A DNA stretch of 43,264 bases from a virus. Location: positions 1 through 43,264 of IMG/VR virus record IMGVR_UViG_3300046323_000059. The stretch is one strand, 5' to 3'. Below, one piece after another: positions 4,276-42,832 of this stretch. Both the position numbers and the translations under genes were made by a program. Within the stretch, counting starts at the first letter, position 1, and the number at the start of each line of letters is the position of its first letter. The notes below the pieces were generated by a model, which was not told the DNA's origin, did no database searches, and saw only the letters and a program-made list of their open reading frames with translations.

Positions 4276-4441
4276 ATTCATAAAAGTTCTGCCGCCTCAG
4301 GAACTCCTAGGAGATTGCCCTAAGGTGGTAGAGCTATACAAGACTAACGGAGATTTAGTATGGACTATACTAGAGTACCGTAAAGCCTTGGCTATGTGTA
4401 ACATAGATAAGGAGAGCCTGCGAGAGTGGGTTAAACAATGA
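4193..4441 (+). CDS. Rz1-like outer membrane spanin (lipoprotein)
   Basis: This 82-residue protein has a signal peptide ending in the lipobox-like LPAC (Cys23), so it would be lipid-anchored in the outer membrane. The mature part is polar and includes [12 protein letters not shown], a proline-containing stretch of the kind seen in Rz1 proteins. It overlaps the Rz reading frame by 83 bases. A second in-frame ATG at 4202 (MYQK) is an equally good start. The stop overlaps the next ATG by 4 bases. Confidence 0.8.
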
Positions 4442-5751
4442 CGACTATCTTTGAAGCTGTAGCAGGGCCTACAGGCAAAGGTGCCTTACGTCCTTCTACT
4501 ACATACGCTATCACTAGCGCCGAGTTACAGGCTGCTAATAGCGGCAACCGTAATGATCTCTTAGTACACAAGTACAAAGTATACCATTTAGACACTGACC
4601 CTGCCCAGTTATACCAGAGTAATGGTAAGGCATTGGTGCCTATACAAGAGCAAGCTACGTTACAGTTATCGCAAGATAATGTTAGCCCCGTGTTCTTGGT
4701 TAACTCTACACGCGAGCTAGTAGACGCTGCTGGAAACCCTGTTGGGTCGCTTACTGGTACGAGTTATGTAGAGGTTGCTACCTACGCAGACCTCCCAGTT
4801 AGCCCAACAGAGGGCGACAACTACGTTGTCCTTACGGCTACTGGTGTACCATTTGTCAATAAGAAGCCAGCGGGTTTGTACCACTACGCCTCAGGCGTTT
4901 ACAACTACGTTGGTAGCTTGCCCGAGGGTTACTTTACTGACAACGTACTAACCTTCTTCGATAACCTAGATGCCACCAAGCAAGCTAAGTTTGAGCTAGG
5001 TTCTATTACTAGCGGGACCACCCGTACCCTCACGCTGCCCGATAAGAATGGGACTATTGCTACGCTGGCTGACGTAAGCCCCGGCCCTCAAGGTATTCAG
5101 GGTGAGCAAGGTCCACAGGGTATTCAGGGGCCTACTGGTAGCACTGGGCCTCAGGGTATACAAGGCATACAAGGTGTTACAGGCGATACAGGAACCCAAG
5201 GGCCTCAAGGCATACAGGGCGTTACAGGTGACACTGGCCCAGCAGGGCCTACTGGTAGCACTGGGCCACAAGGTCCTATTGGTAATACTGGCCCTCAGGG
5301 TATCCAAGGCCCTACCGGGCCAGCAGGCGACCAAGGTATACAGGGTATTCAAGGCCCAGTAGGGCCAGCAGGGTCTAACGGAGTGGGGGTTCCTACTGGT
5401 GGTAGTGCTGGTCAGGTTCTTGCTAAGATCGACGCTACAGACTACAACACAGCGTGGGTAACACCTAGCGTTGGGGGCGGTGGTGGCAATCACCTTACTA
5501 CAGTAGTAGTCACTGTTCCTAGCCCGTGCTGGGAGTACCAAGGTGTTGTAACCGTAAGTGGTGCCACTGCTAGCAAGAAGGTACAGGCTACACTAGCCCA
5601 AGGTTTAGACGAGGAGAACGACTACTCCACAGTAGTAGATGATTCCATTGTCCTTACAGCCATAGCAGAAGAGGGTGCTATCCGCTTTATCCTATCAGCT
5701 AAGTCCCGTATTACGGGCCCGTTTACTATCCACTACCACATGTCATCATGA
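4438..5751 (+). CDS. Collagen-like fibre protein
   Basis: This is a 437-residue protein in three parts. Residues 1-210 resemble phage fibre N-termini, with segments such as [16 protein letters not shown] and [13 protein letters not shown]. Residues about 214-317 are an uninterrupted run of Gly-X-Y triplets (GPQGIQG, GPTGSTG and similar) predicted to form a collagen-type triple helix. The C-terminal 110 residues start with a glycine linker and should form a small beta-rich cap. It is probably a trimeric side or head fibre; the attachment site is unknown. The next gene overlaps by 4 bases, so the two products are probably made together. The repeats are partly identical at DNA level, and the copy number may vary between relatives. 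Confidence 0.75.
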
Positions 5752-35528: not shown

Positions 35529-38500
35529 ATGGACTACACTAAACTATTTGAAACGGTTAAGCAAGTTGAATCTAATGGCAACCCATTAGCCGTAAGCCCA
35601 AAGGGGGCTGTTGGCACTATGCAGACTATGCCCACTACCCTGACTAAGCCGGGGTTTGGTGTGGTCCCTGCTAAAGACAACAGCCCTCTAGAGCTAGAGC
35701 GCGTTGGGCAGGATTACTTGAAGGCAATGATAGGTCGCTACGGTGACTTGCCCACTGCCTTGACAGCCTATAACTGGGGACCGGGTAATGCTGACCAGTG
35801 GCTTAAGGATGGGGCAGACGTAACTAAGCTGCCTAAAGAAACACAAGACTACCGTACTAAGATTATGTCTCGTATGGCCGGGTCAGCTAAGGACATTCGC
35901 AAGGATGCCCTACAGCAGCAGGCTACATCCCGCATGGGCGTTAGCACTAATCCGGCTACCCGCGATGCAGCTTTAAGCGCAGCGAACGTAGCCACTAAGG
36001 ATTATGTCGAAGGTCGCCCAAGCCTGACAGAAATGTTTGGTGCTGCCTTAGGCGGTACCTTTGAGGGCGTGATTAGCAAAGCAGTGTTTGCCCCTCAGTT
36101 CGAGGAAGAAGCAGGCTTTAAGCCTGACATGGCCCTCTTGCCACAAGATGCTGATACACACCTAGTCAACGACTTCGCAGGGGCTAAGAGTACCCTCGAA
36201 GCACAGCAGCACCTCAACGACTGGAGCGAAGAGAAGTCCCGTCAGAAGACAATGGCTGATCGCGGTGTAGGCCCCGCCATTGCTTTGCAGTTCGGGGCAG
36301 AGTTTGCTAGCCCGGTAAACTGGGTGGTACCCTTTGCCGCTACAAGGGCACTAGGAGCCATTGGACGGGGTTCTGAGGCCCTCATGAAAGCTGGCAATAC
36401 CAGTGCAGGGTACGCGAGTTCTATTGGTGAGAACCTTGTTAGCGGCACCGCACTAGAGGCCATTAAACAGCGCGTAGACGGGGAGTTCAAGCCAGCAGAC
36501 TTGGCTATCAGTCTGGTAGCTGACGGCCTTATGGGGGCTGGTGCGGCCTTTATGAGCGCCCGTGGTGCGGCGAGTGCTATTGCCAATTCAGCAAGCGAGA
36601 AGGCCATTGCGCGTGAGTTTGATTTAGCCCAACGTGCTGAGCAGCAAGTGGGCAAGAGTGCTGACTCTGCCTTGCTCCGGACTACTATGGACAAGCTCCA
36701 TGAGCAAGACGTTAACACCACGATCACCGATGCCTTAGGTGATATACCAAACGAGCAGAAGATTATCCAAGAGTTAATCTCACCAGAGGACGCAACCAAG
36801 TTTGCCTCTAAGGGTAATGAGGCTAGGGTAGGCCGACAGATGACAGGTGATAACCAGTTCACTGAGATGGCTACCTACGGTGTATTCAAACCCACAGAAG
36901 ACTTTGCTGAGCGCAAGGCACAGCTAGACAACCTAGTAGCTACTCCCGGCGTACACCTTGTTGAGGGTATTGCTAAGAGTAAAGAGTTCACCCGCTACGC
37001 AATGGTCATTGAGACTATGCGTAAGCAGCTAATCCCAGATGTGGCTATCCACCTAACTGACGGTGGTACTGGTATCGGAAACGCTAGCGGGGCACAGGGT
37101 ATTATTAAGCCCGGCGTAAGCATGGTAGCCGTTAAGCCCGGTGCTGGCTTGCGGGTAGTAGCACATGAGTTTGCTCATGCTGTATTTGCACACCAGTTTA
37201 GCAAGCAGTCCCCAGAGAAACAACAAGCAATGGTCAATGCTTGGGAGACTTGGAAGAAGACTTTTGACGTAGCTGGTGGTGCCCAAGAGTCTATGCTTAA
37301 GCGTAGCCCTGTGGCCTCAGCCTACGATGCAAGCGGTAGCGGTGGCCTTACCGCCTACGTTCCAGCAGTACACGGACGAGCCGTTGATTCATTACGTGCT
37401 GAGATTGGCAAAGCCTTCTCGACTAAAGCAGAGGCAGATAAGTTTAACGATTACTTCTCTAACTTCAACGAGTATTCAGCAGAGCAGATGGTCAAACACT
37501 TTGAGGCTGTTGCTGCTAAGGAAACTACGTCAGCACTAGACCTGCCTAGGGCGCTACTGTCGGCACTAATGAGCCTAGTAGAATCAGCCCTTAAGGTATT
37601 CAAGCTGGCTAAAGAGAAAGGCTATCTTGGTGCAGAAGCACCCTTTAAGGACTTCGTAGAAGACTTAATCGCTGGTAATGCGGCTAAAGGTTTAGACAGT
37701 GCGGGCCCGTCAGAGATTGCTAAGATGGCAGTACCCACTAAGCCAGCAGAAGTTGTTAACGAGCTAAGCCAAGACCCTGACTTCATCCGTTTCGGTCTTG
37801 CTAACGTACCTATGAGTACACCTAACGAACGCAAAGAAGCTCAGGTTATGCTGGCCCTCCATAAGCAAGCAGAGCAGTGGGCTATTACTAACCCAAAGGA
37901 TGCAGCATGGGATGCTAGGGCACAGAACCTCTCCGACAACAACATCTTTAACGTATCCTCTATTGGCCTGACTATGCTTAAGTCAGATAGCCCCTTGCTT
38001 CGGATGGTTGCTAGCCAGCTAGTAGAAGATGCTAGCGGTGTAACAGGTAAGCGCAACGCTACAGCCGCGATCGCTAAGGGCATTACAGAGCGTATGATTA
38101 TGGGTAACGTAGTCAATGACCTAGACGGTGCCTACAACGCATGGTCTAAGGGTCGCCCCGGCGTACACCTAGACAACTGGAACGGTGGTACATTCCGTGC
38201 AGAGTTTAACAAGCTAGTAGCCCACGAGCGAGAGGCCCGGTGGCAGACTAAAGGCTACCGTGGTATGGACGAGAATGTTAATGCTGCTGCTGACAGCCTA
38301 GATGCTGGCTACCAACGCAGTGCTAATGAGCAACGCCGGGTTAATACGCTTGGCTCAGATGGGTTGCCACTCGACAGTAAAGGCTATATGCCTCACCGCA
38401 TGTCACCAGAGAAGGTGATGGCCCTGACTAACGAGCAACGCTCTGTGTTACACCAAGCCCTGACTGAGCAGTTCATTACCATCGAAGGATGGGACATGAC

Positions 38501-40160
38501 GTTTAGTGATAAGCTAGCAAGTGCCTACATCAAGCGTATGCGGGATAAGGCAGCAGGAGACTACGGTACAGCAATGGGCGGTAGTGCCAGTGCTAACGAT
38601 GTGGAAGAGGCCCTGCGTAGCATGGACCTACCAGTAGACACCATCAATGACTACATGGATAAGTTCACCAAGGGTGCGGCAGGCTTCACTAAGAAGCGCT
38701 TGAACCTAGACTTGAACAAAGACTACAATGGCTTTAAGCTAATGGACCTCTTTGACACAGATCAAGTAGCATTGTTCAAAGCACAAGCAGGTAAAGCCAG
38801 CGGTGAGATTGCCTTAGCTAAGTTCGGTATCCGTGGTAAGCCCGGTTTGCAAGTTATCCGTGAGGCTGTGCGCTATGGCGAGAATGGTAAGCAAGCTAAC
38901 GTAAAGGACATAGAAGCCTTTGACCAGATGGCGGCTGAGTTCTTTAGCGAACCCTTCGGTACAGCAGCAGGTAAGTGGGCTAGCCGCGCTATGCAAGCTA
39001 ACAGTGTGGTACGCTTGGGTGGTATCGTGTTCAATCAGTTATCTGAGGCGATTAACGGTATCTTCCACGTAGGCGCTAGCAGGGCGCTGAGTAGCGTAGG
39101 GTCTATGGGTCGCTTGCGATCAGAGATCATTGCCTTGTCTAAAGGCCAGAAGGTTGATAACCCTTGGCTGAGCAACATAGAGGAATACTCTGGGGCAGAG
39201 TTTGGTACTGACGCTTACAAGCTGGTCATGCCATTTGATAACCCTAACCTAGCCTACCCAACCTACGGTAAGGATACACTTACTCTGACTGACCGCTTGC
39301 TCCGTGGGGCAGGTCATTTACAGTCCAAACTGTCTGGCTGGAGAGCAGTGCATAGCGCCCAGCAGCGGGGCATGGCTGAGCAGATCGTTAAGAAGATGCT
39401 AACTTACGTGAAAGATGGTAAGTCTGATAAAGCACTAGACGACTTCGGTATCACAGAAAACGTGCGCCAGCACCTACGCCAGAACCTCGGGGCTATCGCT
39501 AGCTTCGACAGTGCTGGTAGGCCACTAGGCTTTGATGCAACTAAGATACCTGACCCAGACATTCGTGAGGCCGTCATCCAGTCCGTGTGGCGTGGTACTC
39601 ACCAGATCATTCAAGGTACCTTCATTGGTGAACGAGGTGCATGGGCGCATGATGGTGTTGTACAGATGTTTACCCAGTTCCGCACCTTTAGCTTGACTTC
39701 TATGGAGAAGCAGTGGGGCCGCCAGCGTAACCTACATGGTACGCCAGCCGCCTTGGGTATGTTGCTTGGGGCTATGTCCGTTGCAGCACCAATCTACATG
39801 CTCCGTACCTACGTTAGTAGTGTTGGTAGGCCAGACCAAGAAGCGTTCTTAGAAGAGCGCCTACAGCCTAACACCATTGCTAGGGCCACACTTAACTATG
39901 TGGCTAAAGCAGGTATGGCAGGAGACTTCCTTGACCTAGTTACAGCAGCCTTACCAGAAGACCTTGGTGTGCCTAGCACAGGCGGTAGGGCTGGGGTAGA
40001 GTCAGGATTCGTGGGTACCTACATCCTCCCAGCAAGTAGCTTAGTCGATGACATTTGGAAGTACATCCAAAGTCCTAATGAGATCAATGATGCCCTTAAG
40101 ATCATACCCGGTTCCCGTATCCCTTTCTTAGTACCAGCCCTTAATAACCTTAAGGAATAG
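35529..40160 (+). CDS. Internal virion protein (gp16 type), transglycosylase plus HEFAH motif
   Basis: This is a 1543-residue ejection protein. Residues 1-110 are a lytic transglycosylase: catalytic Glu14 in VESNGNPLAVSPKGAVGTMQTMP-type spacing, then LTAYNWGPGNADQWL. It opens peptidoglycan for DNA entry, as T7 gp16 does. At residues 546-550 HEFAH, within VVAHEFAHAVFAHQF, gives a zinc-protease motif, and NEYSAEQM (Glu648/Glu652) supplies a possible third ligand; I do not know this in T7 gp16. The C-terminal 400 residues (GAWAHDGVVQMFTQFRTFSLTSMEKQW) match gp16-like ends. It exceeds T7 gp16 (1318) by about 225 residues, fitting an inserted domain. Confidence 0.9.
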   Translation: MDYTKLFETVKQVESNGNPLAVSPKGAVGTMQTMPTTLTKPGFGVVPAKDNSPLELERVGQDYLKAMIGRYGDLPTALTAYNWGPGNADQWLKDGADVTKLPKETQDYRTKIMSRMAGSAKDIRKDALQQQATSRMGVSTNPATRDAALSAANVATKDYVEGRPSLTEMFGAALGGTFEGVISKAVFAPQFEEEAGFKPDMALLPQDADTHLVNDFAGAKSTLEAQQHLNDWSEEKSRQKTMADRGVGPAIALQFGAEFASPVNWVVPFAATRALGAIGRGSEALMKAGNTSAGYASSIGENLVSGTALEAIKQRVDGEFKPADLAISLVADGLMGAGAAFMSARGAASAIANSASEKAIAREFDLAQRAEQQVGKSADSALLRTTMDKLHEQDVNTTITDALGDIPNEQKIIQELISPEDATKFASKGNEARVGRQMTGDNQFTEMATYGVFKPTEDFAERKAQLDNLVATPGVHLVEGIAKSKEFTRYAMVIETMRKQLIPDVAIHLTDGGTGIGNASGAQGIIKPGVSMVAVKPGAGLRVVAHEFAHAVFAHQFSKQSPEKQQAMVNAWETWKKTFDVAGGAQESMLKRSPVASAYDASGSGGLTAYVPAVHGRAVDSLRAEIGKAFSTKAEADKFNDYFSNFNEYSAEQMVKHFEAVAAKETTSALDLPRALLSALMSLVESALKVFKLAKEKGYLGAEAPFKDFVEDLIAGNAAKGLDSAGPSEIAKMAVPTKPAEVVNELSQDPDFIRFGLANVPMSTPNERKEAQVMLALHKQAEQWAITNPKDAAWDARAQNLSDNNIFNVSSIGLTMLKSDSPLLRMVASQLVEDASGVTGKRNATAAIAKGITERMIMGNVVNDLDGAYNAWSKGRPGVHLDNWNGGTFRAEFNKLVAHEREARWQTKGYRGMDENVNAAADSLDAGYQRSANEQRRVNTLGSDGLPLDSKGYMPHRMSPEKVMALTNEQRSVLHQALTEQFITIEGWDMTFSDKLASAYIKRMRDKAAGDYGTAMGGSASANDVEEALRSMDLPVDTINDYMDKFTKGAAGFTKKRLNLDLNKDYNGFKLMDLFDTDQVALFKAQAGKASGEIALAKFGIRGKPGLQVIREAVRYGENGKQANVKDIEAFDQMAAEFFSEPFGTAAGKWASRAMQANSVVRLGGIVFNQLSEAINGIFHVGASRALSSVGSMGRLRSEIIALSKGQKVDNPWLSNIEEYSGAEFGTDAYKLVMPFDNPNLAYPTYGKDTLTLTDRLLRGAGHLQSKLSGWRAVHSAQQRGMAEQIVKKMLTYVKDGKSDKALDDFGITENVRQHLRQNLGAIASFDSAGRPLGFDATKIPDPDIREAVIQSVWRGTHQIIQGTFIGERGAWAHDGVVQMFTQFRTFSLTSMEKQWGRQRNLHGTPAALGMLLGAMSVAAPIYMLRTYVSSVGRPDQEAFLEERLQPNTIARATLNYVAKAGMAGDFLDLVTAALPEDLGVPSTGGRAGVESGFVGTYILPASSLVDDIWKYIQSPNEINDALKIIPGSRIPFLVPALNNLKE

Positions 40161-40212: not shown

Positions 40213-40890
40213 ATGCCTACGCCAACACAGCAGTTGCTAAGTCAAACAATTTATACTACTGATGGTTTAACATCAGACTGGAATTTCTCTTTTGCTGGTG
40301 GCTACATTGACGCTAGCCATGTTAAAGCATACTACCTCGATAGCTCAGATGTGCGTACAGATGTACTAGCCTTTACGCTATCTGGTCCTTATCAGCTTCA
40401 TACAACCTATGTATTGCCAGCGGGCTTGTTGCTTGTTATCTATCGCGACACACCCAAGACTGCGCCTATCGTAGACTTTACTGACGGTAGCGGGTTGACA
40501 GAGCTTGCTCTAGACACTAATGCTCGGCAGGCTATCATGCTTGCAGCAGAAGCCGCTGATGCCAACGTAAACACATCTACTATTGGTGCATCAGCTAGCG
40601 CAGGTGCAGCCGCAGCTAGCGCTTTAGCCGCCAGCAACAGTGCCATTAGCGCACAGGGCAGTGCTACTAGCGCTACAGCTAGTGCTGTTGCAGCAGCAGC
40701 CAGTGCAGCAGAGGCCGCTGGTGCAGCCAGTGGTGCAGGCGGTGATAAAGCCTTCTTCCAGAACGGTAACACCATCAACAATAGCTACACTATTCAAACA
40801 GGTTTTAATGCTGGTACCTTTGGGCCAGTGACCATAGCCCCCGGTGTAGTAGTAACTACCCCTAGTGGTTCCACATGGACCATAGTTTAA
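40213..40890 (+). CDS. Tail fibre adaptor, gp17 N-terminal type
   Basis: This is a 225-residue protein. Residues 1-110 resemble the virion-binding N-terminal domain of T7 gp17 (SQTIYTTDGLTSDWNFSFAGGYIDASHVKAY, YVLPAGLLLVIYRDTPKTAPIVDF). Residues about 115-175 form an Ala/Ser coiled coil, and the end (GDKAFFQNGNTINN, GVVVTTPSGSTWTIV) is a short beta cap. It has no receptor domain, so it probably serves as adaptor for the spikes encoded downstream. An excellent ribosome site (AAGGAGG) stands before the ATG. Confidence 0.85.
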   Translation: MPTPTQQLLSQTIYTTDGLTSDWNFSFAGGYIDASHVKAYYLDSSDVRTDVLAFTLSGPYQLHTTYVLPAGLLLVIYRDTPKTAPIVDFTDGSGLTELALDTNARQAIMLAAEAADANVNTSTIGASASAGAAAASALAASNSAISAQGSATSATASAVAAAASAAEAAGAASGAGGDKAFFQNGNTINNSYTIQTGFNAGTFGPVTIAPGVVVTTPSGSTWTIV

Positions 40891-40897
40891 GGATAAC

Positions 40898-42832
40898 ATG
40901 AGCACAATCAATTCGGCCAACGTTCAGGTTGGTCAGTCAAATACCCCGGCCAATAACATTACACTTAGCACCTCTAATAGCGGTGACTTAGTAGTAAGCA
41001 AGGGGGCTTCGGGTGCGCTAGTAGAGATTACTAGAATTAAGAATAATGGCGAGGTAGATGCTAGTAAGGCAGGCTACACCCCTGCTGGTACTGGTGCTGT
41101 TGCTACTACGGTGCAAGCGCATCAAAGAAAGATAACCTACGCCAGCGAGTACGGTACGTTTCAGCAGGCCATTACAGCCTCCGCTGGCGGTGCTTTGTAC
41201 CTTGACTCGGACATTAGTGTTTCATCCTCCACAATTTTAGATTTGTCCGCCTGCTCTAACACCTTGGTGTATGGGCCGGGGAAAATCATTGGTCCCGCTG
41301 TATCCGTTCAAGGCCAGCCCACTGCATACATGAAGCTGTGGGGGACCTTGGGTTCTGGTGTTGGCTACGGGTCTACGATTGCTGAGTTTGCAAGCAGCTT
41401 CACTCTGGCAAATTCCTTTGCTGCAAATGATTTGCTTCTGCTCTCAAACTTCCCAACAGATGCGACAGACGCATACACCGAGGGCGGGGCTGATGCGTTT
41501 GGAGATAAGGCTCGGACCTACGCAAATTTTAGTACGTCAAACCTACGGCAGACGCGCAGGAAAGAACTTGCGTTAGTTCGAACTGCAACGGCCTCAGCTT
41601 TCACTTTGATGGCTGGTACGGTCAACGCTTACCCAAGCACGACAGCACTGCAATTTCAAAAGATAACACCCGTAAGCGGAATCAAATTCGTTGGCGTTAC
41701 TTTTGAAAACATGCACATAAACCTGCGATATGCGCGTGATATTTCTTTCACAGCATGTCGCGGTTTGGCTTGTGTTTTGGTAGGTCAAAACTCCTACAAC
41801 ATAACGGCAGATTTCACAGAGTTTGATGCCAAAAACACTGATTCACGTATAGATTTCTACGATGCCTGTAAATCGTTGCGAGTAACAGGGGTTTACAAAA
41901 ATATAAATACGCCTGCTGACAATGCCATTGTTAAATTCTTGGGTTGTGTTGACTTTTCTGCTGACGTAATAGTGGAGGGGTGTAAAGGCACAGCGGGTAA
42001 CGGTGTAATGGTAGATACAGCATTTACGGAGTCTCCAAACGGATATTCAGATTTGCCAGCCATAAACTTTAGCATTCGTGCGGTAGCGCGAGGATGTGAC
42101 GGACAAGCGGTGGTTGTTACTTGCGACCCATTCGCAGCCAAAGCACAAAGCGGTCAGATTTTTTTAAGTAGCGATGACACAGGTGTGCTACTCAAGGGCT
42201 GTGAAAACGTTGACGTATACGGAAATATAAATTACGCAGATGGGTCTAACAACTCACTGTATTTAGTGGGTGCGGTTGGGACCAACATATTCGGAAAACT
42301 AAAAGGCAACGTGTACAACAGCACTGTGACCAATCCACGAAATGGAGCGATACAGAGCAACAGCGGTACGAGTCGAATAGGTTCGGTATCTACCGCAGCT
42401 AATCAGCCAGCTTTTCTTTCATCGTTGTCCACTGCAACCACAAATGTGACAGGTGACGGTACGGAAGTATTTATTGCTTTCGACTCTGAGCAATTCGATA
42501 AGTCGAATAACCACACTGCTGGAACTTTCACCGCACCGCTGGACGGAATCTATCGATTCGATATTACTCTAAAGCTAAATAACGTGGGTGCAGGTCATAC
42601 AACTGGGTGGGTTAGGCTTTTGGCTGGGGGTGCAAATTACTATATTCAGCCTTCTCCTGCGGCAATAGCAAGCGCAAGCGGGGACTGTGCTTTATCGCTC
42701 TCTACCATTTGCCAAATGACCGCTGGACAAACTGCAACAGCTTACCTATTGGTGGGTGGTAGCACCAAGACTGTAGGTGTTCAGGGTTCTGGTTTGCTTG
42801 AAACATTCTGGTCTGGGACTTTAGTTAATTGA
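40898..42832 (+). CDS. Tail spike 1, beta-helix with C1q-like tip
   Basis: The 644-residue protein has a conserved N-terminal neck (residues 1-85, ending GTGAVATTVQAHQRK), a beta-helix-like body (GTFQQAITASAGGALYLDSDISV, followed by repeated short hydrophobic strands), and a C-terminal part from about residue 505 (GTEVFIAFDSEQFDKSNNHTAGTFTAPLDGIYRFDITLKL) resembling C1q/TNF-type jelly rolls. It would bind and possibly cleave surface polysaccharide; no catalytic residues can be assigned. The DNA changes composition at about 41,065: CTAG disappears and AT-rich codons increase, so the body was probably acquired. Confidence 0.8.
   Translation: MSTINSANVQVGQSNTPANNITLSTSNSGDLVVSKGASGALVEITRIKNNGEVDASKAGYTPAGTGAVATTVQAHQRKITYASEYGTFQQAITASAGGALYLDSDISVSSSTILDLSACSNTLVYGPGKIIGPAVSVQGQPTAYMKLWGTLGSGVGYGSTIAEFASSFTLANSFAANDLLLLSNFPTDATDAYTEGGADAFGDKARTYANFSTSNLRQTRRKELALVRTATASAFTLMAGTVNAYPSTTALQFQKITPVSGIKFVGVTFENMHINLRYARDISFTACRGLACVLVGQNSYNITADFTEFDAKNTDSRIDFYDACKSLRVTGVYKNINTPADNAIVKFLGCVDFSADVIVEGCKGTAGNGVMVDTAFTESPNGYSDLPAINFSIRAVARGCDGQAVVVTCDPFAAKAQSGQIFLSSDDTGVLLKGCENVDVYGNINYADGSNNSLYLVGAVGTNIFGKLKGNVYNSTVTNPRNGAIQSNSGTSRIGSVSTAANQPAFLSSLSTATTNVTGDGTEVFIAFDSEQFDKSNNHTAGTFTAPLDGIYRFDITLKLNNVGAGHTTGWVRLLAGGANYYIQPSPAAIASASGDCALSLSTICQMTAGQTATAYLLVGGSTKTVGVQGSGLLETFWSGTLVN

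Follow-up and report, generated by a model that had tools for sequence, protein, structure and literature searches.

The gp16-type ejection protein encoded in the window, that is the whole stretch of 43,264 nucleotides analysed here, carries an insert of about 250 residues between its N-terminal peptidoglycan hydrolase part and its C-terminal hub; judging from its modelled fold, this insert appears to be a genuine zincin-type zinc metallopeptidase domain of the MPTase class found in polyvalent proteins. The features computed for it are the predicted fold, a conserved catalytic set, its insertion in the protein, purifying selection and exchange as a cassette, and we consider it quite likely that a catalytically competent zincin is delivered by the ejectosome, a confidence that refers to the enzyme and not to its substrate. 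Proteins of the gp16 type have been studied as components that form the tunnel and open the peptidoglycan; if a conserved, exchangeable metalloprotease also resides in them, the DNA-injection machine would acquire a third function, exerted when infection has only just begun. Since dozens of related viruses conserve the catalytic residues and the domain is exchanged as a block, the ejectosome probably also cuts proteins.

The ejection protein and its insert

The window is a 43 kb record of a T7-type phage; among cultured phages, Curvibacter phage P26059B is closest to it. The genes of the window follow the order expected for this type: terminase, primase, helicase, DNA polymerase parts, single-subunit RNA polymerase, head-tail adaptor, scaffold, capsid, tail proteins, internal virion proteins and a T7-type tail fibre. 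The N-terminal part of this fibre is a separate short ORF of 225 residues, followed by a 644-residue ORF without PHROG match that is possibly the receptor-binding part (40213-42832). Close to the terminase gene, at the left end and away from the main tail-fibre gene, there is a tail-fibre/collagen-like ORF (4438-5751).

The gp16-like ORF (35529-40160, plus strand; 1543 residues, internal virion protein D type) lies between two genes for internal virion proteins, upstream, and the tail fibre, downstream, and its residues 5-1543 match PHROG 342, named "internal virion protein with endolysin domain", with an E-value of 1e-171. At its N-terminus there is a lytic transglycosylase (SLT) domain, residues 6-94 (35544-35810, plus strand; Pfam PF01464, E 6.5e-15), while residues 753-1543 (37785-40157, plus strand) form the conserved C-terminal hub/channel module, recognised by identity and profile matches: it is 48-61% identical to a five-sequence set, 31-64% to IMG/VR relatives and 98% to a near twin, and its profile matches the solved T7 gp16 (7eyb/6yt5, 1e-8) and the tetrameric ejection protein (TEP) of PhiM1 (8vb2, 3e-10). 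The N-terminal part of gp16 is mosaic too, as seen by comparing 35529-35918 of the window with the relatives L003, L008 and L006; an SLT domain is present in the window, and unrelated-looking sequences in L003 and P26059B.

The zincin domain spans approximately residues 470-718 (36936-37682, plus strand) and is missing from short-form gp16 proteins. A previous sequence-only reading had delimited it at 37140-37490, which is too small; its estimate that the protein is about 225 residues longer than T7 gp16 was exact (1543 versus 1318 residues), the extra length being the zincin insert. The fold prediction which that reading had proposed as a check returned a zincin core with high confidence: with the 32-sequence alignment described below, the AF2 model of residues 470-718 has a pLDDT of 91.8 and a pTM of 0.91, and that of residues 421-765 a pLDDT of 83. 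The predicted elements follow the order strand, helix, three strands, HExxH helix, helical stretch and Glu helix, with H16-32, E37-41, E52-58 and E61-66 (model numbering) before the HExxH motif, and HEFAH itself sits in a predicted helix at residues 541-559. Foldseek searches of viral structures (BFVD) placed a protein labelled "large polyvalent protein associated domain" among the best matches, with a significant score (E 2e-5, prob 1.00), and also retrieved a SprT-like protein, whose alignment covers 93 columns at 3.0 A with prob 1.00 but a weak E-value of 0.13; against the PDB nothing significant was found with the model of the window, although the top match is a zincin, the lethal factor of anthrax (prob 0.51, E 0.19).

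Catalytic residues and distribution

The motif HEFAH at residues 546-550 (37164-37178, plus strand) would provide two zinc ligands, H546 and H550, and the general base E547, whereas E648 (37470-37472, plus strand), within a predicted helix at residues 646-662, is the predicted third ligand. E648 belongs to the NEYSAEQ sequence at residues 647-653 of the gp16-like protein, downstream of HEFAH; the HExxH motif and NEYSAEQM, on which the earlier reading had been built, were both confirmed in the 1543-residue ORF. From its composition, about 0.02 HExxH motifs are expected in the whole 1543-residue protein. In an alignment of 32 gp16-like domains, 11-54% identical to that of the window, no column is invariant except H546, E547, H550 and E648 (each 32/32), and the same holds on the trimmed domain; the four residues are the sole invariant positions across divergent relatives, as the proposed conservation check had sought. 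The sequences had been cut around HExxH, so that the invariance of H546, E547 and H550 is partly due to selection; E648 played no part in choosing them. The earlier reading had left the third ligand between E648 and E652, and the former stands. E652 (37482-37484, plus strand) was rejected, since it is invariant in A5, the subgroup of the window, but replaced in the sister, HEFVAG-type subgroup, and it is considered an accessory residue kept only in the former (xEYxAEQ). The signatures of the two subgroups are HExGHxxF...DEFxAEQ for that of the window and HExxHAxT...NxxEFVAG for its sister, and the two are homologous (hhalign E 2.2e-5).

Some zincin-like domains are not peptidases. A structural or degenerate zincin, acting without proteolysis as a zinc-stabilised spacer that orders the ejectosome core or the DNA, is nevertheless improbable: it would agree with the groove that the homologous domain of PhiM1 forms beside the coiled DNA (PMC11440229), but E547 and E648 never vary, even though identity over the remainder of the domain drops to 11-30% in most aligned members, and zinc bound for structure alone has no use for a general base, so that the retention of E547 supports a catalytic zincin.

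The gp16-like ORFs were gathered from IMG/VR by means of the zincin region and, independently, of the C-terminal module. Among the 42 with intact 5' ends, several of which are near-copies so that counts are not independent, HExxH is found just upstream of the C-module in all 30 ORFs of at least 1383 residues and in none of the 12 of 1308 residues or fewer; no long-form gp16 without HExxH was found among the ORFs collected. Short forms have about 6-32 residues opposite residues 480-720 of the window protein. The zincin is missing from T7 gp16 and from the whole 12-member sister clade, and the tree of the C-module, a quick one with some long branches, implies at least four gains or losses. Two of the proteins differ upstream of the zincin: the gp16-like ORF of L013 (1781 residues) has about 200 extra residues there with respect to its close relatives L010 and L012, and positions 1-1000 of L004 contain two near-identical copies of a segment (KPRWKTFDIEFASDVDKALFIVSQ...).

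HExxH and a downstream Glu are also present in the cultured phages P26059B, ErraM, PSTNGR1, MKPT02, CB5, Paku, Axy21, Peggy and BB8, and tblastn detected the zincin signature in about 25 P. putida phages similar to ErraM, itself a phage of Pseudomonas putida KT2440; VPv81 has HELVH, and its third Glu was not located by the signature pattern. The insert was not found in the cultured phages P14, KSC, LNA10, Cd1, Bf7, Ptah, T7 and BL199. With the domain of the window as the only query, tblastn gave no match among cultured phages and a single-sequence scan retrieved only the near twin, alignment queries being needed for further relatives. Protein length was discarded as a general marker of the zincin, since the proteins of CB5, MKPT02, Axy21 and Peggy carry it with 1246-1281 residues.

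That HExxH arose by chance in an unrelated helical insert has a negligible probability. Chance motifs do occur among gp16 proteins, namely HERLH at 559 in T7 gp16 (L098) and HEAAH at 463 in BL199 (L089), neither of which has the insert or the other signature residues, and they are a warning against calls based on the motif only; yet this explanation is refuted by conservation, considering the 30/30 versus 0/12 distribution, the invariant E648 and the confident zincin-like fold.

Exchange of the domain and its possible target

The zincin behaves as a cassette that phages exchange. Between P26059B and L012, identity is about 80% (81%) in the C-module and only 27% in the zincin; along the protein (L012 numbering), it is about 50-76% over residues 1-360, 16-40% over 361-780, which comprise the zincin block, and 66-98% in the C-module. 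The window protein shows the reverse pattern with L012, with 16-43% in the N-terminal part and 46-68% across the zincin; overall values are 61% for the hub and 54% for the zincin, while with P26059B they are 61% and 23%, respectively. When groups were picked from the C-module tree rather than from the zincin tree, the latter rejected both the one formed by the window, L022 and L034 (p-AU 2e-43) and a single clade of P26059B, L010, L012 and L013 (p-AU 2e-14). The domain is under purifying selection: dN/dS is 0.03 with respect to the near twin, the rest of the protein being equally low (0.02-0.09), and 0.09-0.13 among L010, L012 and L013.

By analogy with T7 gp16 and PhiM1, the zincin would be packaged in the virion core and would leave with the ejectosome during DNA entry; it could then cut a protein in the envelope or in the cytoplasm. 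The chances that its substrate belongs to the host or to a competitor are about even, and this target is favoured over pure ejectosome self-processing because the zincin is accessory and is exchanged between otherwise similar phages. More tentatively, and with slightly less than even probability, T7-type ejectosomes of many phages could be regarded as protein-delivery machines with exchangeable protease effectors, by which a host defence or envelope protein would be cut in the first minutes of infection, the cassette being swapped to match the target of the host.

An active zincin whose main job is to cut gp16 itself, or gp14 or gp15, thereby setting the peptidoglycan hydrolase free or taking the tunnel apart once the DNA has entered, is rather unlikely. 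Autoprocessing is the usual proposal for this class, having been advanced for many polyvalent MPTases, and the DdrB protein of phage P1 is cleaved before packaging (Iyer et al. 2017); moreover, the zincin is flanked on either side by a functional part of its own chain. Conversely, the N4 virion RNA polymerase is packaged uncut (Iyer et al. 2017) and in the virion model of PhiM1 the homologous domain belongs to the TEP chain (PMC11440229), so that cleavage before packaging is unlikely; T7 and the 12-member clade manage without a zincin, and a swap between zincins with 27% identity on an 80%-identical hub would be surprising if this hub were what the enzyme cuts.

Relation to known systems

A solved structure is that of the tetrameric ejection protein gp48 of PhiM1 (8VB2), where D268-D528, described as an insertion in the hub by comparison with T7, was named endolysin/exotransglycosidase-like on the basis of BLASTP and DALI (PMC11440229). 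A peptidoglycan-cleaving endolysin or glycosidase domain, as this name and the "endolysin domain" label of the PHROG would indicate for the window as well, is very unlikely: the SLT match lies at residues 6-94, outside the zincin, no glycosidase family matches, and the PhiM1 region, which has an HEAAH motif, can be aligned to the zincin profile at E 4e-11. A zincin may also work on peptidoglycan, as a metallo-endopeptidase on the cross-links. Since HEAAH and a downstream Glu of PhiM1 gp48 align with the catalytic set of the window, D268-D528 is, as far as the alignment indicates, probably the same zincin with a misassigned name, which suggests that the solved structure 8VB2 already contains this domain. 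CB5 gp51 (L097, 3625-7416), noted alongside PDB 8VB2, is an ejection protein of the PhiM1 type.

The family itself is already known, as the zincin-like MPTase of polyvalent phage proteins such as the N4 virion RNA polymerase, whose fold consists of a helix, a three-stranded sheet, the HExxH helix and a Glu helix (Iyer et al. 2017). According to a term search, that work mentions neither gp16 nor ejection nor internal virion proteins, and no description of a zincin in T7-type gp16 was found in the literature searched, subscription journals lying mostly outside it. The earlier suggestion that the domain is undescribed in T7-type gp16 agrees with this literature, but polyvalent proteins have already made its class known, and a zincin probably lies, under another name, in a T7-type ejectosome whose structure has been solved.

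Members of the sister subgroup match PHROG 2206 (N4-type virion RNA polymerase) over the MPTase region (4.5e-8), and one of them a DarB-like protein (5e-5); the profile of this subgroup matches the ejectosome proteins 9sfn (1.7e-13), 8vb2 (4.4e-11) and 23sg (3.9e-6) and, weakly, IrrE structures (E 0.043). Single-sequence comparisons with the N4 polymerase are weak (0.0035 and 0.015). The domain of the window alone matches no Pfam family, its searches against Pfam, NCBIfam and PADLOC giving no match or noise, and one alignment member has a weak match to PF18818 (0.017); matches to pentatricopeptide proteins in PDB profile searches were rejected as helical-repeat artefacts, with no passing stretch. 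As for the Peptidase_M78/IrrE/ImmA family, weak sequence matches are present in 7 of the 32 members (best 7.6e-5), whereas the window's domain has no match above the Pfam cut-off and a search for PF06114 in its own record found nothing; furthermore, IrrE-type proteins are regulators, while the carrier of the zincin in the window is a virion protein.

The polyvalent MPTases share with the window the HExxH helix, the three-stranded sheet and the downstream Glu helix, all predicted for the latter, and they too lie within large multidomain phage proteins injected with the DNA, a delivery that for the window would follow from T7 gp16; the difference is the carrier, here a T7 gp16-type tunnel/transglycosylase protein without RNA polymerase. 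T7 gp16 has in common with the window the N-terminal lytic transglycosylase, the C-terminal hub module and the gene order gp15-gp16-gp17, but it has no insert, with about 17 residues opposite residues 480-790. P26059B gp06 has the same architecture and C-module and its own motif, HEVGH with DEFAAEQ, while its N-terminal part is different and its zincin only 23% identical. PhiM1 gp48, finally, is likewise a gp16-type ejection protein with an inserted HExxH domain; unlike that of the window, it starts without the T7-like N-terminal transglycosylase region, and its zincin belongs to the HEFVAG-type sister subgroup.
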